A stretch of 31,875 nucleotides of DNA from a virus. The stretch's first letter is position 1. The number at the start of each line of letters is the position of its first letter. The DNA lies in the IMG/VR virus record IMGVR_UViG_3300030020_000068, positions 1 to 31,875 of that record; one strand, given 5' to 3'. The translations under genes were made by a program, and so were the position numbers. The notes under the pieces were generated by a model. It was not told the DNA's origin and searched no databases. It saw only the letters and a list, made by a program, of their open reading frames with translations. Below are positions 5,987 through 18,432 of this stretch, piece after piece.

Positions 5987-5996
5987 AAGAGTATAT

Positions 5997-6071: not shown

Positions 6072-6082
6072 ATTTTTTAATA

Positions 6083-6188: not shown

Positions 6189-6231
6189 CAATTTCTACCG
6201 TTAGATAAATAATAAAACGGAGAAATTGATG
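6186..6231 (+). promoter_or_regulatory. SD- and ATG-masking hairpin with late box in its loop
   Basis: CATCAATTTCT (6186-6196) and CCGTT (6198-6202) pair with AACGG (6216-6220) and AGAAATTGATG (6221-6231), a 16-bp stem with one bulged A. The 3' arm holds CGGAG and the ATG of the HNH gene. The loop contains GATAAATA (6204-6211), a near match to the late box, which would start RNA at about 6217, just before the CGGAG. Confidence 0.7.
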
Positions 6232-6777
6232 CAGTCTGATTTAATAAAACAATATCTTATTGAAGGTAAATCTTTTAAAGAAATACAAAGCGTTGTAACT
6301 ATTTCTAAAGCTACATTATCGTATCATAAGAAAAAACTTGGTTTACCAACGTTATCCTGTGGTAAGAGATATAATTGGAAATTGATAGGTGAAGACCTTG
6401 ACAATGGTTATGATATATAATATATTATAGATAAGTATGGTGTTTCAAATCATACTCTTTTAAATGCTAAATATAAAAATAAAATATTTTTTGAGATTCC
6501 AAAAAAGACATTAGAAATTTATACTGTAGAAAATCATTCTAAAGTTGGTTCAAATATAAGAAATAAAATCAAAAAGTTAATAAAAGAAAAAAACGGAATT
6601 CTTGAATGTCAAGAATGTGGTGTTGGAGAAATTTGGAATAATAAGAAATTAGTTCTTCAGCTTGATCATAAAGATGGAAATCCTAAGAACAATTTTATTG
6701 ACAATTTAAGAATTTTATGTCAGAATTGTCATTCTCAAACACATACATTCGCTGGCAGAAATGTAAAAAGGAACTAA
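6229..6777 (+). pseudogene. HNH homing endonuclease interrupted by an in-frame TAA
   Basis: From ATG 6229 the frame reads a helix-turn-helix N terminus (SFKEIQSVVTISKATLSYHK) and then meets TAA at 6418-6420. The same frame continues without shift to TAA 6775-6777. It encodes an HNH domain: CQECGVGEIW, then LVLQLDHKDGNPKNN, FIDNLRILCQNCHSQTH. Restoring one base would give a 182-aa enzyme. It is a pseudogene, or a gene needing read-through, or a split into a 63-aa DNA-binding product plus a silent nuclease half. It sits between tRNA-Gln and the kinase gene. Confidence 0.8.
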
Positions 6778-6778
6778 A

Positions 6779-7255
6779 ATGAAAAAATATATTTGGCTTC
6801 TTGTAGGGCTTCCGGGTGTAGGTAAGTCAACTTGGCTTAATAATCATGCAGTCAATCGTAAGGATGCTGTTATTGTATCTTCAGATACAATCATCGAGGA
6901 TATGTGCAAGGCAGAAGGATTGACCTACAATGAAGGGTTTCAACGTTTTATCAACGTTGCACAGAAAAAGTTCTTTCTCGATCTGGCAGAAGCTTTGATC
7001 GATGGTAAGGACGTATTCGTGGATCGCACGAATTTGACTGTAAATTCACGTAAGAAAATTCTCGATTTGGTTCCTGCCGGATATGATAAGCAGGCAATCG
7101 TTTTTCATTGTGATCATAAAATTCATAAGGAAAGACTCGCTTCAAGACCGGGAAAGACTATTCCGGGTCATGTCATCGACCAGATGGAAACCACATTTCA
7201 AATGCCGACTGTAGACGAAGGTTTCAGCGGTATCACCACAATCAATACAAACTGA
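6779..7255 (+). CDS. Polynucleotide-kinase-like P-loop kinase
   Basis: P-loop GLPGVGKST at residues 10-18, an SSDTIIE strand and helix, and VDRTNLTVNSRKKILD match the kinase half of T4 PseT/AAA_33 polynucleotide kinases, which phosphorylate 5'-OH ends of RNA or DNA. The 3'-phosphatase (HAD) half of PseT is absent: the protein ends at 158 aa. An arginine-rich lid (KERLASRPGKTIPG) follows. It begins one base after the broken HNH gene and may use AAAGGA at 6767-6772. In T4, Pnk repairs cleaved tRNA with RNA ligase; no ligase is in this window. Confidence 0.8.
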   Translation: MKKYIWLLVGLPGVGKSTWLNNHAVNRKDAVIVSSDTIIEDMCKAEGLTYNEGFQRFINVAQKKFFLDLAEALIDGKDVFVDRTNLTVNSRKKILDLVPAGYDKQAIVFHCDHKIHKERLASRPGKTIPGHVIDQMETTFQMPTVDEGFSGITTINTN

Positions 7256-7263
7256 GGTATAAT

Positions 7264-7593
7264 ATGAGATATGCAAATTTTGATAGAGTAAAACTAAAAA
7301 CAACATTTACACTTGAAGTTGTAAAAAATGAGAGTGAACGTAAAAATATTTTTTATGTAAAAAACCCTTGGAATTACGATCCACAATTATTTAAAATATC
7401 TGAACATGATATAGATTTTATCGTATATGATGCACCATTAATTGTTGGTGAATTGGTAGAATATGTTAACGATTCAAATAAAAAAGGGTTGTGGACAATT
7501 ATATCAATTAATGATGGTTATGCATGGTGCAGAGCCAATTCACAGACATACAATACTTTTAAAATTTTAGAGCTAAAAAGATATAGAGGATAA
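7264..7593 (+). CDS. Hypothetical protein (109 aa)
   Basis: ATG 7264 follows TGAGGTATA by a few bases (weak GAGG site). Beta-rich sequence with the motifs GELVEYVNDSNKKGLWTIIS and YAWCRANS, which suggests a small SH3- or barrel-like fold (inference). No recognised family. Confidence 0.55.
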   Translation: MRYANFDRVKLKTTFTLEVVKNESERKNIFYVKNPWNYDPQLFKISEHDIDFIVYDAPLIVGELVEYVNDSNKKGLWTIISINDGYAWCRANSQTYNTFKILELKRYRG

Positions 7594-7666
7594 AAGAAAT
7601 CCTCATATGTCAGAAGCTAAAGAAAAAATGAGACAATCAGCACTAAAAAGAGGTAATAATAAATGA
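7592..7666 (+). pseudogene. NUMOD3-like relic of a homing endonuclease
   Basis: A 24-codon frame reads KRNPHMSEAKEKMRQSALKR and then GNNK before TGA. NUMOD3 motifs of phage GIY-YIG/HNH endonucleases have the form NPhhSEETKEKhRxAxKG, so this looks like the last trace of a deleted endonuclease. It could be translated from ATG 7607. Its end provides AGAGG, the likely ribosome-binding site of the glycosyltransferase gene. Confidence 0.55.
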
Positions 7667-8631
7667 GTGATAGTATTTTGTTAGGAGGTACGGAATTAAT
7701 GGTAAAGCGTCTTAAAGATTCTTTACCATCAGAATTATTGGATAATTTTCAGATTATTCCGACAAGGTTAACAGAAGAACTTGATGAAAGCAAAATTCGT
7801 ATTGCTTATATTCATGATCTTGCGAATGATCCTCAACTTGCATATCTCGATAATGGCGGATGGCGAAAGTTTCATTTGCTAGTTTTCGTTTCTAATTGGC
7901 AGATGCAATCTTTCATTGGCCGTTATCAAATTCCTTGGGAACGTTGCCTAGTCATTCAGAACGCAATTGTACCTATTGACGTAGACCTTGATAAGAAGCC
8001 TACTGACAAGGTTCGTCTGATTTATACACCTACACCGCATCGTGGTCTGAATATCCTCCTACCAGTCTTCGAAAAGCTGTTAGAAGTCTATCCTGATCTA
8101 GAGTTAGATGTTTTTTCTTCATTCAAGCTTTATGGATGGGAACAAAGAGACGATCAATTTAAGTCTCTCTTTGAAAAATGTGAGAATCATCCTAACATAA
8201 ATTATCATGGTTCACAATCTAACGAAGTCGTTAGAGAAGCCTTGAAGAATGCACATATCTTTGCATACCCTTCAAAGTGGCAGGAAACAAGCTGTCTATG
8301 TCTTATAGAAGCTATGTCTGCCGGTCTGATCTGTGTTCATTCCAATTTAGGCGCTCTTTACGAGACAGCCGCTAATTTTTCATATATGTATCAATTTACA
8401 GAAGATGAAAATCGTCATGCACAAATATTTTACAGTGCATTGAGAATGGGTATTGAAAATCTCAAGAATGATGTTAATATAGGGTTGAGAATAAAGCACC
8501 AGAAGGTATATGCAGATCAAGTTTATAATTGGAATGCTCGCAAAGACCAATGGAACGCTTTACTTAATTCAATGTTAACTCTACCTAGAGAATTCGAAAA
8601 GCCAAAGTTTGTTTACAATACAGGATATTAA
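7663..8631 (+). CDS. GT-B glycosyltransferase (GT4-like)
   Basis: 322 aa with the C-terminal Rossmann half of GT-B enzymes well kept: RLIYTPTPHRGLNILLPVFE, NINYHGSQSNEVVREALKNA and HIFAYPSKWQETSCLCLIEA. The latter holds the E-x7-E nucleotide-sugar motif ETSCLCLIE. The N-terminal half is short and starts GGTELM. The protein should move a sugar from a nucleotide-sugar donor; the acceptor (modified phage DNA, virion or host surface glycan) cannot be deduced. The start ATG 7663 overlaps the TGA of the NUMOD3 relic. Confidence 0.82.
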   Translation: MSDSILLGGTELMVKRLKDSLPSELLDNFQIIPTRLTEELDESKIRIAYIHDLANDPQLAYLDNGGWRKFHLLVFVSNWQMQSFIGRYQIPWERCLVIQNAIVPIDVDLDKKPTDKVRLIYTPTPHRGLNILLPVFEKLLEVYPDLELDVFSSFKLYGWEQRDDQFKSLFEKCENHPNINYHGSQSNEVVREALKNAHIFAYPSKWQETSCLCLIEAMSAGLICVHSNLGALYETAANFSYMYQFTEDENRHAQIFYSALRMGIENLKNDVNIGLRIKHQKVYADQVYNWNARKDQWNALLNSMLTLPREFEKPKFVYNTGY

Positions 8632-8633
8632 TT

Positions 8634-8864
8634 ATGACTGAGAAACTACCAGTAAATATTGAAGAAAAAGGTTGGGTATTGGATTTTCGCTACAAGAATA
8701 AACTTGTAACTGAAGATTTTATTCGAAATCTTATTGAAAAGCAAATTCAATCTCTTAGCGATAAGGGTATTGAAATGTTTTCTGCTGCTCTTTATGCAGA
8801 AGCAAAAAAGCGTGCTAAACCACGATCTTTATCTATTGATCCTTGGGGTAATGAAGCCGCCTAA
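8634..8864 (+). CDS. Small hypothetical protein (76 aa)
   Basis: ATG 8634 lies two bases after the glycosyltransferase stop. Helical, charged, with the C terminus KKRAKPRSLSIDPWGNEAA. It ends convergently with the GIY-YIG gene, sharing two bases (8862-8863). No family recognised. Confidence 0.55.
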   Translation: MTEKLPVNIEEKGWVLDFRYKNKLVTEDFIRNLIEKQIQSLSDKGIEMFSAALYAEAKKRAKPRSLSIDPWGNEAA

Positions 8865-9601
8865 GCACATTGATATTTACAATTATTATTGTGCCATCTA
8901 GTAATATTAGATTTTAAAGCTTTTAAACCACACTTGATACAAGTAGACTTTTTATAAATTCTACTATCATTTGAGTGTTTGATTTTTTCTAATGTTTCTA
9001 AAGAATGGGATATTCCTTTATTCCAAGGGATATCACCACTTTTAAATTGTTTAGGTGGAATAATTCCTTGTTTAGCAATAGATTTCTTTTTTCTGGTTTC
9101 TTTAGATTCTTTAATTCCTTTTTTGACTCCGACAAGTTCACCAGATAGCCAACGAGGATCATCTTTAGAGACTTTTAGACCAAATCCATTTTTATCAACA
9201 ACTGATATTTTACCTTTATTTGCTTTAGAAATTTTTTGTTTTTGAAAATTTGTTTTTGGGTTTCCTTTTTGTAAAGGAAAACAATCTCTACCGCCTTCTG
9301 TCAGGTTATATAAAATACCTGTTGAATTTAGTTTTCTGCCATAAAATGCAATTAATTCTTCTTCTAAATAAAATGCTTCATCTTCAAAAAGATCAGTCGC
9401 ATACATAATTATGGGAGGATTTTTATTTGTCTCTTGACGAATTGTTTGAATTAAGTTATACTTATCTAAATTAGTATACTTTTCCCTACAGTGTGTTAAA
9501 TGTATTTTATGTCTGTTTCCACAACCTTTACCAATATAAAATGGCTGATTATTATCTAAAGGGTTTAAATAAATGTAAACATAAAATTTAGTTTCTAACA
9601 T
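8861..9601 (-). CDS. GIY-YIG homing endonuclease with NUMOD motifs and zinc finger
   Basis: The N terminus YVYIYLNPLDNNQPFYIGKG carries the GIY...YIG signature. The catalytic Glu is likely in EDEAFYLEEELIAFYG, followed by NLTEGG. The middle has NUMOD3-like repeats (QKQKISKANKGK; SLETLEKIKHS) that bind DNA, and the end a C-x2-C...H-x4-C finger (CIKCGLKALKSNITRWHNNN). 246 aa, apparently intact. It lies on the opposite strand to its neighbours, directly before the RNase H coding region. Its AGGAG site is masked by a hairpin. Confidence 0.9.
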   Translation of the reverse strand: MLETKFYVYIYLNPLDNNQPFYIGKGCGNRHKIHLTHCREKYTNLDKYNLIQTIRQETNKNPPIIMYATDLFEDEAFYLEEELIAFYGRKLNSTGILYNLTEGGRDCFPLQKGNPKTNFQKQKISKANKGKISVVDKNGFGLKVSKDDPRWLSGELVGVKKGIKESKETRKKKSIAKQGIIPPKQFKSGDIPWNKGISHSLETLEKIKHSNDSRIYKKSTCIKCGLKALKSNITRWHNNNCKYQCA

Positions 9602-9602
9602 G

Positions 9603-9640
9603 AGTGATTCTCCTTACTTATTATTTATAGAAAAATCACT
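9603..9640 (-). promoter_or_regulatory. Late promoter inside SD-masking hairpin for GIY-YIG gene
   Basis: Read on the minus strand, AGTGATTTTTCT (9640-9629) can pair with AGGAGAATCACT (9614-9603): 12 pairs, two of them G.U. The second arm holds the AGGAG site of ATG 9601. Between them lies an exact late box TATAAATA (9629-9622), which would start RNA near 9616 and leave out the masking arm. Confidence 0.7.
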
Positions 9641-9656
9641 TGATTTTCACGGAAGG

Positions 9657-10163
9657 ATGATAAATATTTCAATTTTGGTAGATTTTCACGGAACCATGAT
9701 AGCCTCTATCATGGTTCAAATTCATAGAGATAATAATTATCTGATCGACGAAGACCTGATTAGACACAGTATTCTCAATAGTATTCGTCGATATAGAACT
9801 AAGTTTGGTCGAGAATATGGTAACATGATTATTTCATGTGACTCTGGTAGTTCTTGGCGATACTCTATATTCGAACAATATAAAGCAAAACGTAAGAAAA
9901 GTAAAGACGAATCTGAATTTGATTGGGTAGCTATTCACGAATACATGGATAAAATCAAAAAAGAATTGCGTGAATATATTCCTTTTCCTGTCCTTCAGGT
10001 TGCCAACGCCGAGTCCGACGATATTATCGGAACTTTGGCTTCTTCACCATATGTGAAGAAGTGTCTGATTATTTCGGAAGATAAAGATTTCTTACAATTA
10101 TTATCAGAAAAAGTTTCTATATACAAACCTATTAGAGATATATTAATCAAGTTGAAAGATTGA
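9657..10163 (+). CDS. rnh: RNase H / 5'-exonuclease, N-terminal (catalytic) fragment
   Basis: T4 RNase H family (FEN-like 5' nuclease that removes RNA primers). Visible are SILVDFHGTM (first metal-binding Asp), a DSGSSWRYSIFEQYKAKRKK helical-arch region, the acidic ANAESDDIIGTLA and ISEDKDFLQLL. The frame stops at TGA 10161-10163, just before the helix-three-turn-helix domain, which is found in a separate frame at 10422. Start choice: ATG 9657 has GGAAGG touching it; ATT 9666 has that site nine bases upstream and would give the typical N terminus MSILVDF. An ATG at 9600 has no ribosome-binding site. Confidence 0.82.
   Translation: MINISILVDFHGTMIASIMVQIHRDNNYLIDEDLIRHSILNSIRRYRTKFGREYGNMIISCDSGSSWRYSIFEQYKAKRKKSKDESEFDWVAIHEYMDKIKKELREYIPFPVLQVANAESDDIIGTLASSPYVKKCLIISEDKDFLQLLSEKVSIYKPIRDILIKLKD
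9692..9716 (+). repeat. 10-bp inverted repeat inside the RNase H coding start
   Basis: AACCATGATA (9692-9701) and TATCATGGTT (9707-9716) are perfect inverted copies with a 5-base loop. The hairpin lies about 35 bases after the start and could affect translation or mark a nicking site of the adjacent endonuclease. Confidence 0.6.
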
Positions 10164-10360
10164 CCAACCTTCAGAATTTTTTCTTTCCTCAAAATTTCTA
10201 ATAAAATTTGCTTTATTAGAAATTTTTGGTACAGTATTGTATTCTTCATTAACATCCTTATATAATTGACTAAAAGATATTTTATGTATATTACAAAATT
10301 TTTTTAATTCTCCATGAATAATATACTCTATATCATTATGAAAGCGTATATAAAAGCCAT
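10143..10360 (-). pseudogene. C-terminal relic of a homing endonuclease within RNase H
   Basis: On the minus strand a frame from 10358 to TAA 10145-10143 encodes about 71 aa: FYIRFHNDIEYIIHGELKKF, CNIHKISFSQLYKDV and a final SEGWSIFQLD. The pattern GELKKFCxxHxIS...L...G W is the C-terminal DNA-binding repeat of phage GIY-YIG/HNH endonucleases. The nuclease domain is missing. An ATG at 10360-10358 preceded by AGGAT is in another frame by two bases, so a deletion has joined the old start to the tail. It splits the rnh gene. Confidence 0.65.
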
Positions 10361-10424
10361 TGATTTATCCTATTTTCTGTGGTAATATATTATTTATATA
10401 ATAGGATAAGGATTTTAATCAATG
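10358..10424. promoter_or_regulatory. Inverted repeat with minus-strand late box; overlaps start of rnh C-fragment
   Basis: TTATCCTATT (10365-10374) pairs with AATAGGATAA (10400-10409), and CATTGAT (10358-10364) with ATCAATG (10418-10424), with an 8-base bulge. TATAAATA is read on the minus strand at 10398-10391 in the loop. This is the same plan as at the intact endonucleases and marks the old endonuclease start. Its outer arm now also contains AAGGA (10408-10412) and ATG 10422 of the RNase H C-terminal fragment. Confidence 0.6.
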
Positions 10425-10802
10425 AAGGAAGAATTTTATACTAAAGATGAAATAAAGAAGTTTCTGTTTGAGCACATTATTAAAGGTGATGCAACGGATG
10501 GAATACCGAATATATTTTCTGATGATGATACTTTTATTAATAATACCAAGAGACAAAAGCCAATTTATCAAAAAAAGATTGATGAATGGTTTATAAATAA
10601 AAATGAGTTTGATAAGGTCATTGCAGACTCTCACTATATCAGAAATGATCGATTAATTAATTTAAAGCATACACCAGCAGAAATCAAGGCTGATATTATA
10701 AAAGATTTGATTGATCAAAGCAAAAAGCCAAATTTGCTTATGGATTATCTTCAAAAGTATAATCTTGCATATTTGCTAGAACATTACCAAGAATTTATTT
10801 AG
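10422..10802 (+). CDS. rnh: RNase H / 5'-exonuclease, C-terminal (H3TH) fragment
   Basis: Residues 11-35 (IKKFLFEHIIKGDATDGIPN) match the helix-three-turn-helix DNA-binding motif of the RNase H/FEN family (T4: MTKIIKGDKKDGVAS). The rest follows the T4 C-terminal domain, including NRLI-like NDRLINLKHTPAEIKADI (T4: ENLVLIDFDYIPDNIASNI). It has its own AAGGA site and ATG, 258 bases after the N-fragment stop. Joined to that fragment it would give an approximately full-length T4-sized enzyme (about 296 residues versus 305). The two pieces may assemble in trans, or the enzyme may be lost. Confidence 0.82.
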   Translation: MKEEFYTKDEIKKFLFEHIIKGDATDGIPNIFSDDDTFINNTKRQKPIYQKKIDEWFINKNEFDKVIADSHYIRNDRLINLKHTPAEIKADIIKDLIDQSKKPNLLMDYLQKYNLAYLLEHYQEFI

Positions 10803-10811
10803 GAGACATGA

Positions 10812-11261
10812 ATGGCAAGAAATAAACCAATTTCTGAGGTTTTTAAGGAAGCATCAGAAATCCGACTAAAGAAAGATCGCATTGATTTTCTGAGAAGTCA
10901 TGCAACGCATTTAATGCGTTATGTCGTGCAAGGAGCATATCACCCTAACGTGTTTTGGCTTTTACCTAAAGGTGTACCTAACTTTAAGAGGTCAGAGCCA
11001 GTGGGGTCCGAAGGGGCTTTCATGCAGGAATTTAATCGTCTTTATCTATTCTGTAAAGGCGGAAATGATAATCTAAAACAGTTTGATAGAGAAAGACTGT
11101 TTATTAATATGTTAGAAAAACTTCATCCAGATGATGCAATTCTACTTTGTCATGTTAAGGATAAAAAAATTAATTATTCATTTCTTACATATGCTCTTTT
11201 TAAGGAAGCCTTTCCTGACTGGCTACCAGAAAAAGCTAAAGAAGAAAATGATGTTGACTAA
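10812..11261 (+). CDS. DUF6433-like phage protein
   Basis: The block ISEVFKEASEIRLKKDRIDF, then YVVQGAYHPNVFWLLPKG, GGNDNLKQFDRERLFINMLE, LHPDDAILLCHVKDKKINY and a terminal EAFPDWLP follows the conserved outline of a 150-aa family widespread in T4-like and marine myoviruses. No enzyme motif is evident and the function is unknown. ATG 10812 is preceded by AGGAG (10801-10805). It overlaps the next gene in another frame. Confidence 0.75.
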   Translation: MARNKPISEVFKEASEIRLKKDRIDFLRSHATHLMRYVVQGAYHPNVFWLLPKGVPNFKRSEPVGSEGAFMQEFNRLYLFCKGGNDNLKQFDRERLFINMLEKLHPDDAILLCHVKDKKINYSFLTYALFKEAFPDWLPEKAKEENDVD

Positions 11262-11427
11262 ATCAGAAATTGAGGATACAATTCGACATCTAAGAAAAAG
11301 ATCAGATGCTTTTAACTATTATAAGGAAGGATTTTCTTATGACGTAAGAGACGAGCGAGTTGATTACCTTGTAATTGGATTTCTAGAAGATTTTTTAAAA
11401 CTAGATAAGGAAAATAACAATGAATAA
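11248..11427 (+). CDS. Small hypothetical protein (59 aa)
   Basis: Two adjacent ATGs (11248, 11251) lie within the end of the preceding gene; earlier in-frame starts have no ribosome-binding site. Helical and charged, with EDTIRHLRKRSDAFNYYKEG. It overlaps the next gene by 8 bases. Confidence 0.55.
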   Translation: MMLTKSEIEDTIRHLRKRSDAFNYYKEGFSYDVRDERVDYLVIGFLEDFLKLDKENNNE

Positions 11428-11764
11428 TGATTTACGCGATACAATGGAACGATTTCTTAAGGGAATGTTCCAGAAAGCAAGCGGAGATAGAATTGATGAA
11501 GTTCTATTCAAGCAAGTTAAGGGAAATAATACAGTCGTATTCAGAACCCTTGTAGACAAGGACGAACTCGATCTTAGGGAAACCTATAACGAATATTCAT
11601 TAACTTCAGATGAACTTCTTGAATTCATTTTGACCGATCAAAAGGTTGTCGATTTCATTCATGGTTACTATGCAGAAAGCCTTGCTGAGCTTCATGGTTA
11701 CTATGATCCTGATTTTGAATTCGATGATGAATTAGAAGATGCATTTTTTAAAGGTTTAGTATAA
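11420..11764 (+). CDS. Acidic hypothetical protein (114 aa)
   Basis: ATG 11420 follows AAGGA at 11407-11411. The C terminus is very acidic (YYDPDFEFDDELEDAFF). It is followed directly by a TTG start. No family recognised; conserved position between DUF6433-like and zinc-ribbon-like proteins suggests a core operon role. Confidence 0.6.
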   Translation: MNNDLRDTMERFLKGMFQKASGDRIDEVLFKQVKGNNTVVFRTLVDKDELDLRETYNEYSLTSDELLEFILTDQKVVDFIHGYYAESLAELHGYYDPDFEFDDELEDAFFKGLV

Positions 11765-11998
11765 TTGCCTAATTATAACGTAGAAAATAAAGAAACAGGC
11801 GAATATTCAACAGTATCAATGCCTTGGGTTGAGTTTGAGGATTATCTAAAAAATAATCCTCAATTTCGACAAGTTTTTGAAAAGGTTAGACTTAGTTATA
11901 GAGGCGTCGGAGACGTCAAAGTTCCCGAAGATTTCAATAGTATATTGAAGAAAATCAAAAAGGATTATCCGGGGTCTACAATTAATCCATTAAAGTAA
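11765..11998 (+). CDS. FmdB-like phage protein lacking the zinc cysteines
   Basis: MPNYNVENKETGEYSTVSMP, the EFEDYLKNNPQFRQVF repeat-like helix, and the ending FNSILKKIKKDYPGSTINPL match the small phage family usually called FmdB-like zinc-ribbon (KETGE...EYLKxNPxxxQ...KxxHPGSTIN). The usual N-terminal cysteines are missing here. It starts at TTG immediately after the previous stop, with AAAGG ten bases before. Function unknown. Confidence 0.65.
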   Translation: MPNYNVENKETGEYSTVSMPWVEFEDYLKNNPQFRQVFEKVRLSYRGVGDVKVPEDFNSILKKIKKDYPGSTINPLK

Positions 11999-12011
11999 AA
12001 GGTTATAAATA

Positions 12012-12749
12012 ATGGAAGAAGAACAAGAGCAAAAAGAAAAAGGAGACTTCTTGACCGAACGTAAGAGTAATAAGAAACCACAACTCCGTATTATTAAGCC
12101 AAAAACAAAAAATCAAGATAAAATTTTTAAAGCATTTGAAAATGAAAAACATGTTTTGATACATGGAACAGCCGGTACAGGTAAGACTTTTCTAGCACTT
12201 TATCTGGCACTTGATGCAGTTTTGAATAAAAGACTTTTTAATGAAGTGGTAATTATTAGATCAGCAGTTCCAGCAAGAAAGCAAGGCTTCTTACCCGGAA
12301 ACGAAGAAGAAAAGAACGAAATTTTCGAAATACCTTATGAAGCTATTGTCAATGATTTGATGCAGGCTCCCGGTCAATATAAATTTCTCAAAAATGAAAA
12401 GAAAATTAGATTCGTTTCTACCTCTTACCTTAGAGGTATTACACTAGAAAACGCTATCGTCATTATTGATGAAGTACAAAATTTCAATGGTGGTGAAATC
12501 GATACCAGTATGACACGAGTCGGTCATGGTTGTCGAGTTATGATTTGTGGTGACACAAAGCAAAACGATCTACTTTATCTACATGAAGACTCATGTTTAG
12601 AAGACGTTTTGAAGATTGTAGATAAGATGAAGTCTTTTGCTACAATTAAAATGACTCCTGCCGATAACCAGAGACATGATATTGTCAGAGAATGGATTGA
12701 AGCAAGAGACAGTAGTTCAAATACTCTGCCTAGATTTATTACAGGTTAA
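12012..12749 (+). CDS. phoH: PhoH-like ATPase
   Basis: Walker A GTAGTGKT at residues 52-59, the block EVVIIRSAVPARKQGFLPG, Walker B AIVIIDEVQNF near 150, and CGDTKQNDL place it with PhoH family NTPases (helicase superfamily-1-like fold), common in T4-like phages. The biochemical role in phages is unsettled; RNA helicase or ribonuclease-associated activity has been reported for cellular relatives. The N terminus is a charged, lysine/glutamate-rich stretch. AAAGG at 11998-12002 precedes the ATG. Confidence 0.9.
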   Translation: MEEEQEQKEKGDFLTERKSNKKPQLRIIKPKTKNQDKIFKAFENEKHVLIHGTAGTGKTFLALYLALDAVLNKRLFNEVVIIRSAVPARKQGFLPGNEEEKNEIFEIPYEAIVNDLMQAPGQYKFLKNEKKIRFVSTSYLRGITLENAIVIIDEVQNFNGGEIDTSMTRVGHGCRVMICGDTKQNDLLYLHEDSCLEDVLKIVDKMKSFATIKMTPADNQRHDIVREWIEARDSSSNTLPRFITG

Positions 12750-12754
12750 TAATC

Positions 12755-13177
12755 TTGTCAGGATGGATTTATGAAGGTAAAGAAATAGACGAATCAGACA
12801 TTCCAGCCGGAAGCGTAGGATTCGTCTATATCATTTTTATAGCCGGTACAGATAAAAAATATATAGGTAGAAAGATTTTAACTTCTACCAAGAGGAAACC
12901 TCCGAAGAAGGGTGAAACCCGACGCACCAAAGTCGTCTCAGCTTCTAACTGGCAAAATTATTACGGTAGCTCTGCTGAAATGAAGAATCTGCTATTGACA
13001 CAGGGTAAGGATGCCTTTATAAGAAAGATTGTTCGCTTCTGTAAGAGCAAGTCTGAAATGGCTTACTACGAGGCAAAGCTTATATTTGAAGAAGACGCCT
13101 TACTTAAAGATGAATATATCAATAAGTGGCTCACCTGTCAAATCAATGGAAAAAATCTAAATTATCTAAGGAAGTAA
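12755..13177 (+). CDS. GIY-YIG-fold phage protein
   Basis: VGFVYIIFIAGTDKKYIGRK is a GIY-YIG-type strand pair. RRTKVVSASNWQNYYGSSAE and KSKSEMAYYEAKLIFEEDAL follow the pattern of a family fixed beside phoH and the deaminase in many T4-like phages, rather than a mobile endonuclease. The Glu in YYEAKL would be the metal ligand. It starts at TTG, with CAGG upstream. It may be a resident nuclease (repair or host-DNA attack); no NUMOD DNA-binding tail is present. Confidence 0.7.
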   Translation: MSGWIYEGKEIDESDIPAGSVGFVYIIFIAGTDKKYIGRKILTSTKRKPPKKGETRRTKVVSASNWQNYYGSSAEMKNLLLTQGKDAFIRKIVRFCKSKSEMAYYEAKLIFEEDALLKDEYINKWLTCQINGKNLNYLRK

Positions 13178-13178
13178 A

Positions 13179-13667
13179 TTGAGTCGTTATCATATTTGTA
13201 ATAAGTGGGACTTCAGATTCTTGAAGCTCGCCAGAGAAGTTTCTACGTGGTCTAAGGACGGAACAAAAATAGGGGCCGTATTGGTACGTCCCGACAAGAC
13301 AGTCGCCTCAGTAGGCTTTAATGGGCTTCCTAGAGGCATTGAAGATCAAGACTATCTTGGAAACCGAGAACTTAAAAATAAGTTTGTAATTCATGCCGAG
13401 CAAAATGCAATTCTTTTTTGTAGCGATAAAGACACCAATAATTATACTATGTACGGTTGGGGTCTGCATCCTTGTGCTCATTGTGCTTCCGTATTAGCAC
13501 AAAAAAATATCAAGAGAATTGTTAGTATAGATGCTGCTAAGTTAGCATCACCTTCTTGGAAAGAAGCACAATTTCTTGCAGAAGAAATTCTAAAAAAATG
13601 TAATATTGACAACGATCACTATACAATAGAGGAATTTGAAGAAGATTATGAATATATCAATAAGTAA
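13179..13667 (+). CDS. cd: dCMP deaminase
   Basis: Converts dCMP to dUMP for thymidylate synthesis. H72-A-E74 (IHAEQNAILF) and P98-C-x2-C102 (HPCAHCASVLA) are the zinc ligands and catalytic Glu. The region SWSKDGTKIGAVLV and GFNGLPRG matches ComEB/T4 Cd. Length 162 aa is normal. TTG 13179 follows AAGGAAG by a few bases, one base after the previous stop. The end overlaps the next gene by 20 bases. Confidence 0.92.
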   Translation: MSRYHICNKWDFRFLKLAREVSTWSKDGTKIGAVLVRPDKTVASVGFNGLPRGIEDQDYLGNRELKNKFVIHAEQNAILFCSDKDTNNYTMYGWGLHPCAHCASVLAQKNIKRIVSIDAAKLASPSWKEAQFLAEEILKKCNIDNDHYTIEEFEEDYEYINK

Positions 13668-13962
13668 GGGTAACGATGAATTAACACAGCTTGACAAGAT
13701 TGCCAAGGTGCTGTATGAAATGTATAATTTCGATACGCAACCTGATATGCTAGTCACAGGCATATTTACGACACCTTATCAAAAGCAAGGTGTACAGTAT
13801 ACAGAAGAAGAACTGAAAAGTTTTAATTATCATTATGATAGAATTCAAAATAATGCTGACGAGAATACCCCAATGATTTATGCATGGCGTAAGTGGGGTC
13901 CAAAGGCTGTAGAAATTCAGCTTCGTTTAGAGAAACAAGGTTTAACAATAAAGGAAATTTAA
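13648..13962 (+). CDS. Hypothetical protein (104 aa)
   Basis: ATG 13648 lies within the deaminase end, with GAGGA at 13629-13633; a TTG at 13636 would also fit. The sequence has LYEMYNFDTQPDMLVTGIFT and MIYAWRKWGPKAVEIQLRLE. Soluble; no recognised motif. Confidence 0.55.
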   Translation: MNISISKGNDELTQLDKIAKVLYEMYNFDTQPDMLVTGIFTTPYQKQGVQYTEEELKSFNYHYDRIQNNADENTPMIYAWRKWGPKAVEIQLRLEKQGLTIKEI

Positions 13963-13963
13963 T

Positions 13964-14260
13964 ATGTCAACAAATTATTTTTATGAAGAATTAGAAAAAA
14001 TAATTTCAGAGTATAATTTTGAAATTGCTGATGATAATACATTCGTTAATATGAAAAAAAGTGTATATTCATTTGTAAATAAACTATATGATAATGGGTT
14101 TATTCTAAAAATTTCTGATAAAGAAGTTAATTTAGAAAACTTATGTATAGTAGTGTATTCAGAGAATGATAATATCACAGTTGTTTTTAATGATAATCGT
14201 TATGATGTTATGTTAAAAGTTGTATTTGAATTTAATTCTGTAAAATTTGAGGAAATCTAA
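13964..14260 (+). CDS. Hypothetical protein (98 aa)
   Basis: ATG 13964 follows AAGGA (13950-13954) by nine bases and the previous stop by one. Acidic, beta-rich at the C terminus (IVVYSENDNITVVFNDNRYD). Very AT-rich coding with few G or C third positions compared with the nucleotidyltransferase after it. Unknown function. Confidence 0.55.
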   Translation: MSTNYFYEELEKIISEYNFEIADDNTFVNMKKSVYSFVNKLYDNGFILKISDKEVNLENLCIVVYSENDNITVVFNDNRYDVMLKVVFEFNSVKFEEI

Positions 14261-14296
14261 TACGTCAAAGTTGGATTGAAAGAAGGACATAAAATT

Positions 14297-15274
14297 ATGA
14301 GTATTGAAGGTCGTGGTTTTAAGCGCAATACAATCGAAAAAGTTATTCGTGCAAAGATTAATAACTGGCTAAAGTCAATTAATGATGATAATCTAAAGAA
14401 AATAATCAAAGAAAATTACATTCTGACTGGTGGAGCTATTACTTCACTCTTGCAGGGTGAACAACCTAATGATTATGATCTTTATTTTGCAACTCGTGAG
14501 TCTGCTGTTAAGGTAGCAGAATATTATCTTGACAAGTGCTCAAAGGAGCAGGACAGCAAGGTTAAGATTTATATTGACGAAAATGTAGCTGATCGAGTCA
14601 AGATTGTCATCAAGTCAGTTGGTATTCTTCAAGGTGCAAAAGACAATACTGAAGGCTACGAGTATTTTGAGACTTTCGAAGGTCAAGATGGTGTAGCAGA
14701 TACAATTGAATCTTACCTTAACAAGAATAATGTAAAGAGTCAAGAAAAGTATGCTGTTGCAATGGTAACAAGCAATGCTGTTTCGTTGAATAACGATGTA
14801 CAATTAATTTTTCGTTTCTTCGGTGACGCAGCAGAAATTCATAAGAATTATGACTTCCTGCATGTTACAAATTATTTCACCGAAAAGGATGGTCTAGTAC
14901 TCAATTCAGATGCTCTTGAGGCTATCATGTCCAAGACATTGAAGTATGTCGGATCACGATATCCGATCTGCACCATGTTCCGTATTCGAAAGTTTATCAA
15001 TCGAGGATGGTCAATCAATGCAGGAGAAATGCTAAAGATTGCATTTGATATCAATAAGTTAGACCTTAATGATATCAATGTGTTCTATGAGCAGCTTGTA
15101 GGCGTCGATGCAGCATACTTTCATCAGCTTATGGGAATGCTCGATAAGTGGATTAAAAAGAATCCTGATGTAGAGCTAGATCGTAGCTATCTATTTGAAT
15201 TGATTAACAAAGTCTTCGAAGATCATGATTTTTCTGATATGGAAGAACTTCATGACGAGGTAGACGGTGAGTGA
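14297..15274 (+). CDS. Nucleotidyltransferase (pol beta fold) protein
   Basis: ILTGGAITSLLQGEQPNDYD then LYF (residues 42-63) is the GG...DxD signature of the poly(A) polymerase/CCA-adding type nucleotidyltransferase head; G45, G46, D59 and D61 would bind the nucleotide and metal. The rest (about 260 aa) has no domain I know. ATG 14297 follows AAGGA (14282-14286); a TTG seven codons upstream is weaker. Possible jobs include RNA end addition or nucleotide modification of a protein. It overlaps the next gene by 8 bases. Confidence 0.75.
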   Translation: MSIEGRGFKRNTIEKVIRAKINNWLKSINDDNLKKIIKENYILTGGAITSLLQGEQPNDYDLYFATRESAVKVAEYYLDKCSKEQDSKVKIYIDENVADRVKIVIKSVGILQGAKDNTEGYEYFETFEGQDGVADTIESYLNKNNVKSQEKYAVAMVTSNAVSLNNDVQLIFRFFGDAAEIHKNYDFLHVTNYFTEKDGLVLNSDALEAIMSKTLKYVGSRYPICTMFRIRKFINRGWSINAGEMLKIAFDINKLDLNDINVFYEQLVGVDAAYFHQLMGMLDKWIKKNPDVELDRSYLFELINKVFEDHDFSDMEELHDEVDGE

Positions 15275-15581
15275 CTTCACATATAAGTGGGGAGAAGATG
15301 TCCGAGCAGGAATTTATTCATGGTGGCCTATTGCAGAGAAGCAAGGGCTCACCAAGGTTGAATTTCTTATCTATGCATTTGACTTGCTTATTAACGAAGA
15401 TTCTGGTAAGCTAAAAGAGCTTATCAAGGCTTCTATTGAAGCTAATCCAGATATGGTAGCCAAAGCAAAAAAGAATCCTAAGCTTGCTAACTGGTTTATT
15501 GGTCAGGTAATGAAGTTAGATTCTTCTTTCGATCCTAAAGCTTTGTTAGAAGAAGTCAATAAACAATTAGAGGTATTGTAA
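15267..15581 (+). CDS. GatB/YqeY-like domain protein
   Basis: The second half, IKASIEANPDMVAKAKKNPK followed by LANWFIGQVMKLDSSFDPKAL, resembles the C-terminal domain of GatB and YqeY (NPKAVNFLVGQVMKATKGKANP). In cells that domain contacts tRNA in the Asp-tRNA/Glu-tRNA amidotransferase. Only this small domain is present, so no enzymatic activity is expected; tRNA binding is an inference. It starts at GTG within the previous gene. Confidence 0.6.
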   Translation: MSDFTYKWGEDVRAGIYSWWPIAEKQGLTKVEFLIYAFDLLINEDSGKLKELIKASIEANPDMVAKAKKNPKLANWFIGQVMKLDSSFDPKALLEEVNKQLEVL

Positions 15582-15811
15582 TGGATATATGCGGTGTTGA
15601 TATTAGATTAGATCAATATCAGATTTCTTCACAAAGAATAAAGAATTCTCTTGAATTAATTTTTAAATATGGTCAAGTAGATGGTTCACACCATAAGGCT
15701 TGGGTTATAGATCAAGTTACCAGAATTCTAACAGAACATCAATATGATGAATTTGTTTCTGAATATGGTGGTTATGGCGAATTTGAATGGGATACAGGAG
15801 TTGCTCCATGA
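15581..15811 (+). CDS. Small phage protein (76 aa)
   Basis: ATG 15581 overlaps the previous TAA. The core GQVDGSHHKAWVIDQVTRIL is a pattern (DGxHHKxWVIDQxxR) I associate with a widespread small myovirus protein of unknown function. It ends over the next gene's start. Confidence 0.55.
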   Translation: MDICGVDIRLDQYQISSQRIKNSLELIFKYGQVDGSHHKAWVIDQVTRILTEHQYDEFVSEYGGYGEFEWDTGVAP

Positions 15812-16101
15812 TTAATATACTTAATACAATTAAACAGGCTATTAAAGAAACCATTGAAGAAATCGGAATGGCTAATTTCCGTAGAACATCTTTCTTTGCC
15901 TCAAATCAAACAAAATATTCTGACTACTGTCCAGATTACGATAATGTAACTCAGGTAGAAAAGAATATCTATACTGATGGAAAAGAATTCTTTTTTTCCG
16001 ATGAAACCGGAGATTTAGCCGGTCCATACGAATCAGTAGATCAGGCAAGAACTAAACTCAAAGAATATTGTCATTGGTTAGAAACAGGAGAAGTGGTATG
16101 A
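15808..16101 (+). CDS. Hypothetical protein (97 aa)
   Basis: ATG 15808 follows AGGAG at 15795-15799. The sequence KEFFFSDETGDLAGPYESVD then QARTKLKEYCHWL looks like a small domain that displays a sequence-derived beta sheet plus helix. Unknown function. It overlaps the next gene by 4 bases. Confidence 0.6.
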   Translation: MINILNTIKQAIKETIEEIGMANFRRTSFFASNQTKYSDYCPDYDNVTQVEKNIYTDGKEFFFSDETGDLAGPYESVDQARTKLKEYCHWLETGEVV

Positions 16102-16283
16102 CACACGATCAAGTTAAAAATGTTGTAAAGTATCCTACAGAATTTAAGCGTAATTACAAACGTTTTTATGGAAGACACTGGATCGATCCTCAAGATACTC
16201 ATGAACCTATTTCAACACAACAAATTTCAATATTTGTTCTTGGGCTTGTAGTATTTTTATGGATTGCAGCTTTTTTAATTTAA
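16098..16283 (+). CDS. Tail-anchored small membrane protein (61 aa)
   Basis: ATG 16098 follows AGGAG (16086-16090). A basic N-terminal half (KRNYKRFYGRHW) is followed by one C-terminal transmembrane helix (QQISIFVLGLVVFLWIAAFL). It would sit in the inner membrane with its N terminus in the cytoplasm (inference). It is the last gene before the tmRNA promoter. Confidence 0.6.
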   Translation: MTHDQVKNVVKYPTEFKRNYKRFYGRHWIDPQDTHEPISTQQISIFVLGLVVFLWIAAFLI

Positions 16284-16286
16284 GGG

Positions 16287-16315
16287 TTGACATTCAAAGT
16301 CGGATATGAGATAAA
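16287..16315 (+). promoter_or_regulatory. Sigma-70-type promoter for the tmRNA
   Basis: Consensus -35 TTGACA (16287-16292), a 17-base spacer, and -10 GATAAA (16310-16315). It is the only good promoter before the tmRNA acceptor piece and starts just after the preceding stop codon. Confidence 0.65.
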
Positions 16316-16348
16316 TAGATTGTAGACGGAATGAATAACTAAACTTAG

Positions 16349-16372
16349 AAATCTCTAAAGAAATCTCTAAAG
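16349..16372 (+). repeat. Tandem 12-bp repeat, two copies
   Basis: AAATCTCTAAAG is repeated twice without gap in the leader between the promoter and the tmRNA acceptor piece. Bases 16316-16439 otherwise hold no gene that I can support. Confidence 0.75.
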
Positions 16373-16439
16373 AATGTTCTTGGTTCCCTATGTATATGTA
16401 TATGAATAGTAGTCTTACTACCATATATGTACAGCGTTC

Positions 16440-16516
16440 GTTCTGTTTACATGTAAACGTTGAGCTATCGTAGATAGTGCTGAAAGACCGGGGGGCAGTA
16501 CCCCGCCGGTCCACCA
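16440..16516 (+). ncRNA. ssrA: tmRNA acceptor piece (permuted ssrA, 3' half)
   Basis: This piece carries the 3' end of the tRNA-like domain. The T arm is CGGGG-GGCAGTA-CCCCG (16489-16505), five pairs with a seven-base loop. It is followed by acceptor strand CCGGTCC (16506-16512) and encoded ACCA (16513-16516). Upstream, TGCTGAAA (16478-16485) can pair with TTTTGGCA of the coding piece to make helix P2, and CTATC-GTA-GATAG (16465-16477) forms a hairpin beside it. The acceptor strand pairs with GGGCCGG at 16608, 92 bases downstream, so the gene order is circularly permuted as in alphaproteobacteria. The 5' end is approximate. Bases 16517-16607 are the spacer that would be removed during maturation. 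Confidence 0.85.
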
Positions 16517-16607
16517 AAAGTGTATATGAGACAATTAAAATTATTCGGATAATAAAGATTATAGTCGTTATAATGTAATCCGAACATTATACATATACGT
16601 TTTTGAT

Positions 16608-16803
16608 GGGCCGGAAATAGGCTCGATTTTGGCAGGAAGTGGGTAAGGAGTTTACCGGGCGGTGTCGCTCTGATACGGGACACAAAACTGTAAATGTCGC
16701 AGCTAATGACAATAGACCCGCTGTTTCTGAAGCAATGAGAATTGCAGCTTAAACTTTAAGGTTTTGCAGTCCGAGGGGAACTGTATAAAATAATCCCCTC
16801 ACT
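16608..16803 (+). ncRNA. ssrA: tmRNA coding piece (permuted ssrA, 5' half)
   Basis: GGGCCGG (16608-16614) is the 5' acceptor strand. It is followed by AAATAGGCTCGATT, a match to the conserved tmRNA D-loop region (AAUGGNUUCGAC), and TTTTGGCA (16627-16634) for P2. Hairpins GGTAA/TTACC (16642-16656) and GTGTC/GACAC (16662-16683) lie in the PK1 area. The tag frame is at 16699-16752. After it, CAGT/ACTG (16767-16770/16780-16783) interleaves with GAGGGG/CCCCTC (16773-16778/16795-16800), a clear H-type pseudoknot. Together with the upstream acceptor piece it should rescue stalled ribosomes and tag their products. The 3' end is approximate. Confidence 0.87.
16699..16752 (+). CDS. tmRNA proteolysis tag reading frame
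   Basis: The frame has no start codon. Resume codon GCA follows AATGTC (E. coli: ATAGTC GCA). It encodes AANDNRPAVSEAMRIAA and then TAA. The ANDN beginning and the -AA end are hallmarks of alphaproteobacterial tags. At 17 encoded residues it is longer than the usual 10-13, and the penultimate residues (RIAA) differ from the common LAA or VAA, which could change recognition by ClpXP adaptors (inference). Confidence 0.85.
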   Translation, partial: AANDNRPAVSEAMRIAA

Positions 16804-16929
16804 TCTTTCTTTTATATTAGAACATATATAACGATCATTAACTCGACCTTTATGACCGCCTACATAAAATAATTTAGCTTTGGTATCATACCAAATGTAT
16901 ACATAACCAGTATAAATAATTGTTGACAA
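16756..16929 (-). pseudogene. Truncated GIY-YIG endonuclease abutting the tmRNA
   Basis: On the minus strand TTG 16929, with AGGAG seven bases before it, opens a frame MSTIIYTGYVYIWYDTKAKL, FYVGGHKGRVNDRYICSNIK, ending after 57 codons. The first 40 residues are the N terminus of a GIY-YIG nuclease (YVYIWYD...FYVGGHKG). From about residue 41 the frame runs into the antisense of the tmRNA coding piece, so the rest of the nuclease is missing. The homology break coincides with the tmRNA 3' edge near 16803-16810. Confidence 0.75.
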
Positions 16930-16951
16930 ATGCTGTCTCCTAAATTAAAGT
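16923..16951 (+). promoter_or_regulatory. Sigma-70-type promoter before small gene cluster
   Basis: TTGACA (16923-16928), 17 bases, TAAAGT (16946-16951). The -35 box is perfect and the -10 weak. It lies about 70 bases before the 49-aa gene at 17019. A late-type TATAAATA also lies just upstream at 16911-16918. Confidence 0.5.
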
Positions 16952-17018
16952 CTAATGAGATAGAATGAATGGAAGCGGGAACTTCGCGATTCGTGTCATT
17001 TATTTATAGGAGGATAAT

Positions 17019-17168
17019 ATGACTAAGAAGCAAAATCGCCGTGCTCGTCGCATCCTCAACAATAACATGGAATTCAATATGCCGATTTCCGGTCACAAAA
17101 TGAACAAGATTAAATATGGTTGTGGATTAGCAGTACAGGATATCAAACTTAAATATAACGAAGAATAA
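17019..17168 (+). CDS. Small basic protein (49 aa)
   Basis: ATG 17019 follows a strong AGGAGG (17009-17014). The product begins MTKKQNRRARRILNNNMEF, very basic, then has a neutral C terminus. Its codons are richer in C/G than those of its neighbours (CGC CGT GCT CGT CGC ATC CTC), as in a recently acquired or highly expressed gene. Likely an early, nucleic-acid-binding product (inference). Confidence 0.65.
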   Translation: MTKKQNRRARRILNNNMEFNMPISGHKMNKIKYGCGLAVQDIKLKYNEE

Positions 17169-17177
17169 GGAGTAGAT

Positions 17178-17408
17178 ATGTCTATCTATAAAAACCTTAC
17201 CATTGCAGAATGGCAACATAAATTCGCCGGAGAATTTTTTGATCTTTTTGTTGAATATGAATTAAAATCGTTTGGTAAACGTATTATATTAGAAGCAAAT
17301 CTTTATGAAATTGCTTATAATAATGCGGTAGCAGCTTCCGACGAGTGGAAACAAATTGATCCTGTGGAATCTGCAAAAATTAAATTTCTCGAATTAAAGA
17401 TAGGATAA
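17178..17408 (+). CDS. Hypothetical protein (76 aa)
   Basis: ATG 17178 follows AAGGAG (17167-17172). It is helical with a middle stretch EFFDLFVEYELKSFGKRIIL. No family recognised. It is second in the small-gene run behind the promoter at 16923. Confidence 0.6.
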   Translation: MSIYKNLTIAEWQHKFAGEFFDLFVEYELKSFGKRIILEANLYEIAYNNAVAASDEWKQIDPVESAKIKFLELKIG

Positions 17409-17409
17409 T

Positions 17410-17775
17410 ATGTTAAAGAGTTTACTATTAGTTTCTATACTGATTTTTGCATCAGTAGGTATTGCACATGCCACAGAATTAAAAATTACAAAAGAAATGC
17501 AGGCCGAAATGTGTCCTACACCTTTTGATCATTCTAGGATTGGTAATCAAAAGCCATCTTTTGGTTGGGTAAATCCATTTACTGATGTGATTAATAGTTA
17601 TTATATCGGTCCAGAAGGTATTGTTCTGCATGTAGAAACAAAGATTAAAAATAATAAAGTTGTTTCAAGCTGTATAACAGAAGTTGGAGCTATTCCGGGT
17701 GTTATTGATATTCCTACACCTAATACAGCACCAACACCAAAGGACGCACCAAAGGGTGATGTTCCTGCACTATAA
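17410..17775 (+). CDS. Secreted small protein (121 aa)
   Basis: It has a classical signal peptide, MLKSLLLVSILIFASVGIAH-A, with a likely cut after AHA (residue 21). The mature part has two cysteines (MCPTP and SSCITE) that could form a disulfide in the periplasm, and a proline-rich C terminus (PTPNTAPTPKDAPK). No lipobox. Not recognised. A second secreted protein of similar design is at 18668. Confidence 0.65.
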   Translation: MLKSLLLVSILIFASVGIAHATELKITKEMQAEMCPTPFDHSRIGNQKPSFGWVNPFTDVINSYYIGPEGIVLHVETKIKNNKVVSSCITEVGAIPGVIDIPTPNTAPTPKDAPKGDVPAL

Positions 17776-17783
17776 GGTAAGAT

Positions 17784-17945
17784 ATGTCTATTGTAAATAA
17801 GCTAACCGAAAAAGTTTTCGAATATTTTAAATATCGTGATGTCGTTAAAGAATTAAGTTCAATGACAGACCGAGAACTTTGTGATATTGGTATTTCACGT
17901 TGCGATATTCCATGCATTGCTAAGGAAGCCTCAAAAAATGGCTAA
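17784..17945 (+). CDS. DUF1127 (YjiS-like) protein
   Basis: 53 aa. The C-terminal half ELSSMTDRELCDIGISRCDI matches the DUF1127 core (ELsxlsdReLxDIGlsRxDI), with a basic or aromatic helix (VFEYFKYRDVVK) ahead of it. DUF1127 proteins are small arginine-rich regulators abundant in alphaproteobacteria; some bind RNA and affect mRNA and sRNA levels. ATG 17784 follows AAGGTAAG. It overlaps the next gene by 8 bases. A phage copy could act on host post-transcriptional control. Confidence 0.82.
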   Translation: MSIVNKLTEKVFEYFKYRDVVKELSSMTDRELCDIGISRCDIPCIAKEASKNG

Positions 17946-18432
17946 ACTTTTAAAAGATATTCTTATATCAGAAGGAATCGAACATCTGTTCAAAAATCGA
18001 GCAGTAGGAATGATTTCTGCTGTAAAAGGACATCATACAGAAAAGCAAAATGCTGATCTAACAAGCCAGCTTGGAAAAGCTTTAAAAAATCGTGGACATA
18101 CTGTAATACCAGCAAAAGGTGGCTACGTCGAAAATTTTGGTACAGATGTTGCAAAGCATTCTCATGAAGATTCATTTGTGGTTGCACATAAAACGCAGGG
18201 TGATGATCATGGTGCTTTGTTAAAAGATTTAACAGAACTTGGTGCTCGTTACGGTCAAGATTCTATTCTTCATAAGCCTCATAATTCAGATGTTGCATCA
18301 TTTCATGGTACAACAGATGGCGTTTGGCCGGGAAAAGGAAAAGTTGAACCTGTAGGAAGACTAAATACTAAGTCTAAGAATCCACAGTATTACACAGAAT
18401 TGCCAAACGGCAAGCGATTTTCCTTCGAATAG
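17938..18432 (+). CDS. DUF3293-like phage protein
   Basis: 164 aa. GMISAVKGHHTEKQNADLTS, LGKALKNRGHTVIPAKGGYV, HEDSFVVAH and LGARYGQDSILHKPHNSD follow the outline of DUF3293 proteins (N..L...L...GY...P..G.....E.SFLV.......L...YGQ.S). Function unknown. ATG 17938 has AAGGA at 17922-17926; an in-frame upstream start at 17881 lies inside the DUF1127 gene and is rejected. Confidence 0.6.
   Translation: MAKLLKDILISEGIEHLFKNRAVGMISAVKGHHTEKQNADLTSQLGKALKNRGHTVIPAKGGYVENFGTDVAKHSHEDSFVVAHKTQGDDHGALLKDLTELGARYGQDSILHKPHNSDVASFHGTTDGVWPGKGKVEPVGRLNTKSKNPQYYTELPNGKRFSFE

Follow-up and report, generated by a model that had tools for sequence, protein, structure and literature searches.

A permuted tmRNA gene in the genome of a T4-like phage

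The window, i.e. the whole stretch of 31,875 bases that was analysed, is a virus record from IMG/VR and represents a fragment of the genome of a phage of the T4 superfamily. It contains a single tmRNA gene, on the plus strand, which is composed of an acceptor piece (16453-16516), an intervening segment (16517-16607), and a coding piece (16608-16803). Phage genes surround it, including those for UvsX (1903-3027), PhoH (12012-12749, plus strand), and the T4-type major capsid protein Gp23 (27078-28478, minus strand), which together with the origin of the record shows that the tmRNA is phage-encoded. A DUF1127 protein is encoded at 17784-17945, and, because of this protein and the alphaproteobacterial type of the tmRNA, the host of the phage is probably an alphaproteobacterium. 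A megablast search with positions 5000-29000 revealed no close DNA relatives among the named phages, and blastn with the tmRNA region retrieved two 31-base matches, in the Roseobacter phages MD18 and DSS3_MAL1. At the protein level, relatives with identities of less than 60% were found in rhizobial T4-like phages (phiM12, phiN3, and RHph_I1_18), cyanophages, and Stenotrophomonas phages.

The original prediction was that the phage encodes a circularly permuted tmRNA of the alphaproteobacterial type, and a search with covariance models had been proposed. This search, together with the phage gene context, supported the prediction. The Rfam model tmRNA_permuted (RF04321) matches positions 16453-16752 on the plus strand with 73.6 bits (cut-off 47, E 1.6e-12), and alpha_tmRNA (RF01849) matches positions 16397-16803 on the same strand with 63.8 bits (cut-off 50, E 1.8e-15). 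ARAGORN also predicts a permuted tmRNA (16424-16843) with the tag VAANDNRPAVSEAMRIAA*, and no tmRNA was called when the complete window was shuffled 200 times with its dinucleotide composition preserved. No Rfam family other than tmRNA exceeds its cut-off at the locus; two sRNA models remain far below theirs. The RF04321 score is low for the family, i.e. the best beta-type tmRNA reaches 147 bits, and alpha-type values are 118.7 bits for DSS3_MAL1 and MD18 and 113.1 bits for locus L074. If the window's own copies are disregarded, lower values above the cut-off are restricted to locus L080 (62 bits) and RHph_I1_18 (60.1 bits).

Structure of the two pieces and the tag reading frame

The acceptor piece was delimited from the alignments to both models and from the sequence. 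It contains the 3′ strand of the acceptor stem, CCGGTCC (16506-16512), followed by an encoded ACCA (16513-16516), and both are located upstream of the 5′ strand, GGGCCGG (16608-16614), showing that the gene is permuted. All seven pairs of the stem can form, and the only G.U pair is pair 3 (16610.16510), which is the position of the alanine identity pair G3.U70. The T arm consists of five pairs (16489-16493 with 16501-16505) and a loop at 16494-16500. The proximal part of P2 comprises eight pairs, two of them G.U, between 16478-16485 (TGCTGAAA) and 16627-16634 (TTTTGGCA). The coding piece carries the 5′ strand of the acceptor stem, the tmRNA-like segment GAAATAGG, the 3′ strands of P2, the tag frame, and an H-type pseudoknot at its 3′ side (16765-16800). 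The stems of this pseudoknot, S1 (16765-16770/16780-16785) and S2 (16773-16779/16794-16800), have six and seven pairs, i.e. 13 in total with one G.U, and none of 60 mononucleotide shuffles was as good. The separated acceptor strands, the T arm, proximal P2, the tmRNA-like segment, and the 3′ pseudoknot had all been part of the original prediction and were found where it had placed them; a distal part of P2 (16453-16458 with 16650-16655) was added by the present analysis. A PK1 can be drawn just after P2 (16657-16683), and, as it was matched by 12 of the 60 shuffles, it is not distinguishable from chance. The spacer between the two pieces, which is expected to be excised, folds back such that its ends pair and the acceptor helix is lengthened (z −2.54; equally stable in 3 of 200 shuffles).

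The tag frame (16696-16752, plus strand), as given by ARAGORN, reads (VA)ANDNRPAVSEAMRIAA, i.e. VAANDNRPAVSEAMRIAA, and thus is stop-terminated and has a hydrophobic-AA end. From comparison with the alpha consensus, the resume codon is most likely GCA at 16699 or GCT at 16702. The proposed frame of the form ANDN...AA is indeed present as ANDN...IAA*, ending at 16752.

Promoter and neighbouring genes

The tmRNA is probably transcribed from a phage promoter at 16287-16315 on the plus strand (TTGACA, 17 bases, GATAAA). The closest non-identical relative of the window, the contig G004 (locus L201; 13,069 bases), has the same two hexamers with identical spacing directly ahead of its tmRNA, at 10943. 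The element at 16287 is missing from a generic promoter scan, because that scan accepts only second hexamers that end in T. A similar promoter-like element with a 16-base spacer is present at 18436.

Upstream of the tmRNA, a phrog_4400 protein is encoded at 14276-15274 (plus strand). It has no Pfam family over the cut-off, and its relatives in named phages are annotated as tRNA nucleotidyltransferase, poly(A) polymerase, or hypothetical protein. In RHph_I1_18 (locus L321, 23681-28079), the relative lies beside tRNAs and genes annotated as polynucleotide kinase, RNA ligase, and tRNA-His guanylyltransferase, and these neighbours suggest a role in RNA repair for the gene in the window.

Several further genes of the region were recorded. 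Only three tRNAs were called in the window, i.e. Asn (GTT), Gln (CTG), and Gln (TTG), at 4890-4974, 5997-6071, and 6094-6179; the Asn and Gln (TTG) tRNAs have variable-region inserts of 12-14 bases that resemble class II long arms. In many alphaproteobacteria, Asn and Gln tRNAs are amidated by GatCAB. The phrog_4400 gene is directly followed by a gene (15267-15581, plus strand) for a protein of 104 aa in which Pfam recognises a GatB/YqeY domain (E 4.3e-9). The gene at 17881-18432 (plus strand) matches the S-adenosylmethionine lyase family (Pfam E 1.7e-10), an anti-restriction type of phage enzyme. A SegE-type GIY-YIG endonuclease over the cut-off is encoded at 12755-13177 (plus strand), and its relative in G004 is on the opposite strand. 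A protein with a YqeY motif adjoining phage tRNAs is mentioned in the available part of PMC5587285.

A diverged phage has a tmRNA at the same place

G004 retains the gene order of the window from about 3832 to 18432, with one SegE-like gene inverted and with the phrog_4400 gene and phoH as syntenic anchors. Gene identities are 30-64%, apart from an endonuclease remnant with 74% (see below). The tmRNA of G004 likewise follows the phrog_4400 gene, in the corresponding position, and is 54% identical to that of the window over 214 aligned positions. Its acceptor stem is GGGCCTG/CAGGTCC instead of GGGCCGG/CCGGTCC, i.e. both partners of pair 6 have changed, and T-A replaces G-C. The tag, which was read by eye because ARAGORN made no call, is ANDNSPMVEEYRLAA*; it has 10 residues in common with ANDNRPAVSEAMRIAA, six of which are specified by different codons (also read by eye). 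The 3′ pseudoknot is of the same type as that of the window, and again none of 60 shuffles was as good. In three further contigs (G001-G003, loci L004-L006), the tmRNA region is identical to that of the window.

These observations bear on the question of whether the gene is a passenger, i.e. a host ssrA that was acquired by accident and is now decaying and functionless. The low covariance score, the weak PK1, and a 5′ leader that is longer than that of G004 would fit such a history. In contrast, the acceptor stem, the T arm, the ACCA, G3.U70, the frame, its stop, and the 3′ pseudoknot are all intact, the altered acceptor pair of G004 still pairs, and a tmRNA occupies the same place in a diverged phage as well as in the identical regions of L004-L006. 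We therefore regard a decaying passenger as very unlikely. The same holds for the earlier suggestion of a relic of host DNA: a fresh relic appears unlikely, because diverged phages keep the location, a compensated acceptor pair, and a similar tag. The gene appears to be intact and maintained by selection, and the tmRNA is likely to be an old resident of the phage lineage rather than a recent passenger from the host.

The tmRNA tree was considered as a proof of vertical descent and rejected, because the two syntenic copies of the window and G004 fall apart in the tree of 217 sequences. As they do not group and are only 54% identical, replacement of the tmRNA instead of vertical descent is possible.

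Occurrence of permuted tmRNAs in related and other viral loci

In the same tree of 217 tmRNAs, the window is found within an all-viral clade of 11 sequences with a support of 0.87. Five other members of this clade have a PhoH relative (L093, L095, L118, L163, and L195), and all of these except L195 also have more of the gene block of the window. Among 15 loci, hand-picked as tree neighbours or as those sharing most genes, eight hold a PhoH relative, and seven of these have the tmRNA downstream of it, at most 7 kb away and in the same orientation; in L118 the two orientations are opposite. The distances are biased, and order and strand less so, because the loci are short, were fetched around the tmRNA core, and were hand-picked.

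When the phrog_4400 protein encoded upstream was used as the query, 64 viral loci were retrieved. RF04321 was run on 50 whole records, i.e. 48 of the 64 phrog_4400 contigs as well as DSS3_MAL1 and MD18. Thirteen of these, including G001-G003, have a match over the cut-off, and such a match is absent from the other 37, many of which are fragments. No tmRNA match was found in phiM12, phiN3, Cr30, and vB_OspM_OC, which are relatives by some genes, and the gene is therefore dispensable in the wider group.

With a pattern for the tmRNA core, at least 119 viral stretches (one from a copy of the window's phage) were retrieved, a set that is not purely phage, because some contigs carry housekeeping genes near the tmRNA and part of the IMG/VR contigs with a tmRNA are probably bacterial; among the matches listed, ARAGORN predicts a permuted tmRNA in 76 of the 119. 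Acceptor stems with at least six of seven pairs are present in 126 of 130 viral-record loci (124 are perfect), among the matches listed, of which 118 were obtained via the pattern and the rest were added. The listed viral-record stems comprise 17 distinct sequences, all with G3.U70; the pattern had fixed G1-G3 (5′ GGG), not U70. For comparison, 106 stems were found at 118 cellular loci, and 104 of them have G3.U70.

Two further groups of viral tmRNAs were noted. Four loci (L137, L171, L189, and L193) have permuted tmRNAs with tags of 29 residues (three distinct), longer than the other tags listed, which have a common FV(D/N)F stretch and the end VNED(F/Y)ALAA. A permuted tmRNA of the beta type, unannotated in the record, was detected in the Stenotrophomonas phage vB_SmaS-DLP_6 (L329, 1501-1722; KU682439.2, 102838-103059, plus strand), with 136.8 bits for RF04321, 103.7 bits for RF01850, and the tag ANDDSFAPMAIAA. 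The genus Stenotrophomonas has a one-piece tmRNA.

A putative endonuclease gene adjoining the tmRNA

In G004, a 194-aa ORF on the minus strand lies directly behind the tmRNA, and its end abuts the 3′ end of the RNA. The window retains only the N-terminal 38 codons of this ORF (28 of 38 residues identical, 74%), after which the frame enters the 3′ end of the tmRNA. By this similarity, 16756-16929 (minus strand) is what remains of an endonuclease gene that is GIY-YIG-like and probably of the homing type. Relatives of the G004 ORF are annotated as “putative homing endonuclease” (RHph_I1_18) and “HNH DNase” (phiM12 and phiN3). The GIY-YIG assignment rests on a motif seen by eye and on weak matches, because all Pfam matches are below the cut-off: the remnant matches GIY-YIG with E 0.053, the relatives of the G004 ORF match GIY-YIG or SegE with E 0.003 to 0.078, and the G004 ORF itself matches neither up to E 0.1.

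A general link between phage tmRNAs and endonucleases of the G004 type was considered but could not be detected. A profile was built from the G004 ORF and three of its relatives and run against 183 ORFs (80 aa or longer) in the vicinity of 81 distinct tmRNA loci and against 182 ORFs distant from tmRNAs; the G004 ORF was its only match. Likewise, when the viral loci were searched by tblastn with the protein from G004, matches were confined to G004 itself and the window's copies. In addition, 120 ORFs of each set (183 near, 182 far) were screened against Pfam, after removal of four far ORFs of extreme length and of the last entries in both lists. Among the 25 of 50 near families listed, which include PDDEXK_1 (5), SNase (3), and housekeeping enzymes, no GIY-YIG or HNH was present, and one SegE was present among the 25 of 63 far families listed; this screen is blind to the G004 family, because the G004 ORF was included and gave no GIY-YIG or HNH match. 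The available part of PMC5587285 places Seg endonucleases close to tRNA or other clusters, and that study found no ssrA; the LAGLIDADG genes within tmRNA introns in the part of PMC11915505 at hand represent a different link. The putative, perhaps homing, endonuclease that adjoins the tmRNA of G004, with 38 codons left in the window and at no other tmRNA locus examined, is new, but a small addition.

Comparison with known systems

The novelty implied by the original prediction does not hold, because two-piece tmRNAs of phages are in print, as the available text of PMC9004378 shows, and occur in annotated phage records. Buchholz et al. (2022, PMC9004378) described the two-piece ssrA of the Methylophilales phage Melnitz and of pelagimyophages, and reported, in the text available, that 402 of 18,146 phage genomes have a tmRNA, with 133 unique tmRNAs in total, and that 53 of these unique tmRNAs are two-piece forms, 50 of which come from marine or aquatic samples. 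The parts at hand of three further papers contain the RF04321 model with a screen that included viral genomes (PMC11915505), a list of phages with ssrA together with the DS6A form (PMC4131195), and tmRNAs in Bradyrhizobium elkanii phages (PMC12656738). Virus-borne two-piece tmRNAs are thus already known, and the window adds one.

According to the available text of PMC9004378, Melnitz resembles the window in having an alphaproteobacterial-type permuted tmRNA in a T4-like myophage, with the ssrA just downstream of a phage early promoter; the tmRNA of the window is likewise preceded by a promoter-like element. In contrast, the Melnitz ssrA contains a glutamine riboswitch in its 3′ part, and positions 15600-17500 of the window gave no riboswitch, of this or another type, even when matches with E values of up to 5 were considered. 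In addition, a transcription coactivator is encoded directly downstream in Melnitz, and none was found among the neighbours scanned in the window.

The tmRNAs of the Roseobacter phages DSS3_MAL1 (MN602268; annotated as ssrA) and MD18 (MT270409; unannotated) are permuted like that of the window, and both also exceed the RF01849 cut-off. They differ in their tag, ANTNAAPMEMAIAA, in the GOLLD RNA and tRNAs upstream, and in a nearby RlaP-type nucleotidyltransferase, whereas the window has the phrog_4400 protein instead. The GOLLD RNAs, over their cut-off, lie just upstream of the permuted tmRNAs (L002, 5392-5855; L003, 5235-5702). A named isolate with relatives of the window genes (capsid 52%, phrog_4400 protein 38%) is the Rhizobium phage RHph_I1_18 (MN988519). 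Its tmRNA (15520-15713, minus strand; RF01849 60.3 bits) differs from that of the window by its location at the end of a tRNA cluster, by the near absence of an intervening segment, and by a UGA stop; the record names SsrA nowhere but in a note attached to a tRNA-Ile feature. Compared with the alpha_tmRNA of hosts, the tmRNA of the window shares the permutation, the G3.U70 acceptor, a T loop like the alpha consensus, the ANDN start of the tag, and the 3′ pseudoknot, but it is located in a phage genome, its P2 and PK1 are divergent, and its tag is longer than the distinct cellular ones.

Proposed function and implications

Taken together, we propose that the locus is an intact, permuted two-piece ssrA of an alphaproteobacterial phage of the T4 superfamily, which would work as a ribosome-rescue tag RNA served by the host. 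From the sequence evidence, we assign this reading a probability of about 85%. A single precursor would be transcribed from the phage promoter at about 16287, as its conservation suggests, and, by analogy with known permuted tmRNAs, tRNA-processing enzymes of the host would excise the intervening segment. The acceptor and coding pieces would be held together through the acceptor stem and P2. The alanyl-tRNA synthetase of the host could charge the ACCA end via the G3.U70 pair seen in the stem. No SmpB gene was found within the 31.9-kb fragment, in a search that was positive in 10 of 14 control genomes, and therefore SmpB of the host would serve, unless the rest of the phage genome provides one. 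With this protein and EF-Tu of the host, the tmRNA would enter stalled ribosomes, in line with established tmRNA biology, and about 16-18 residues ending in IAA, as read from the frame, would be added as a proteolysis tag. The benefit may be an extra rescue capacity during heavy phage translation and mRNA decay in the dying cell. The original prediction had offered both continued rescue and retagging of products as motives, and the sequence by itself is compatible with either.

Alternatively, the phage tag might be a retagging device that directs products to a fate other than that of the host tag. The length of 16-18 residues, compared with 10-14 in 33 distinct cellular tags, and the end RIAA would be compatible with this. 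However, the length is not a fair contrast, because the titles of the cellular sources are largely Rhizobiales and the viral set includes probably bacterial contigs, and tag length was thus rejected as a phage signature. The end is also not peculiar to the phage, as IAA ends three of the 33 cellular tags and, among the matches listed and with the window's own included, six of 64 distinct viral-record tags, and R precedes the last three residues in four of the 33 cellular tags. We regard retagging as highly unlikely. Least probable of all is that the RNA inhibits the host tmRNA by acting as a decoy for SmpB or ribosomes, a role suggested, in the available part of PMC4131195, for the RNA of the mycobacteriophage DS6A: any SmpB-binding phage RNA should compete with the host RNA regardless of its tag, but the DS6A RNA has a tRNA-like domain only and no coding part, whereas the window has a frame, a stop, and a proteolysis-like tag end, which are similar in G004.

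Beyond the favoured reading of a host-served rescue RNA, a more far-reaching scenario appears doubtful at present: in the clade of T4-superfamily alphaproteobacterial phages, the tmRNA might be ancient, fixed downstream of phoH, under selection for a tag of its own, and guarded or spread, within one of the branches, by the adjacent antisense GIY-YIG-like endonuclease, which the phage of the window would since have lost. If true, the tmRNA would be a homing-linked, near-core phage gene and not a sporadic pick-up from hosts.

With the window, the two-piece phage tmRNAs extend to a further phage lineage; those in the available text of PMC9004378 are mostly from marine and aquatic phages. The two diverged syntenic copies in the window and G004 allow the constraint on the tag and the acceptor stem to be read. 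If function were shown, lytic phages would bring their own ribosome rescue, with the tag under phage control.
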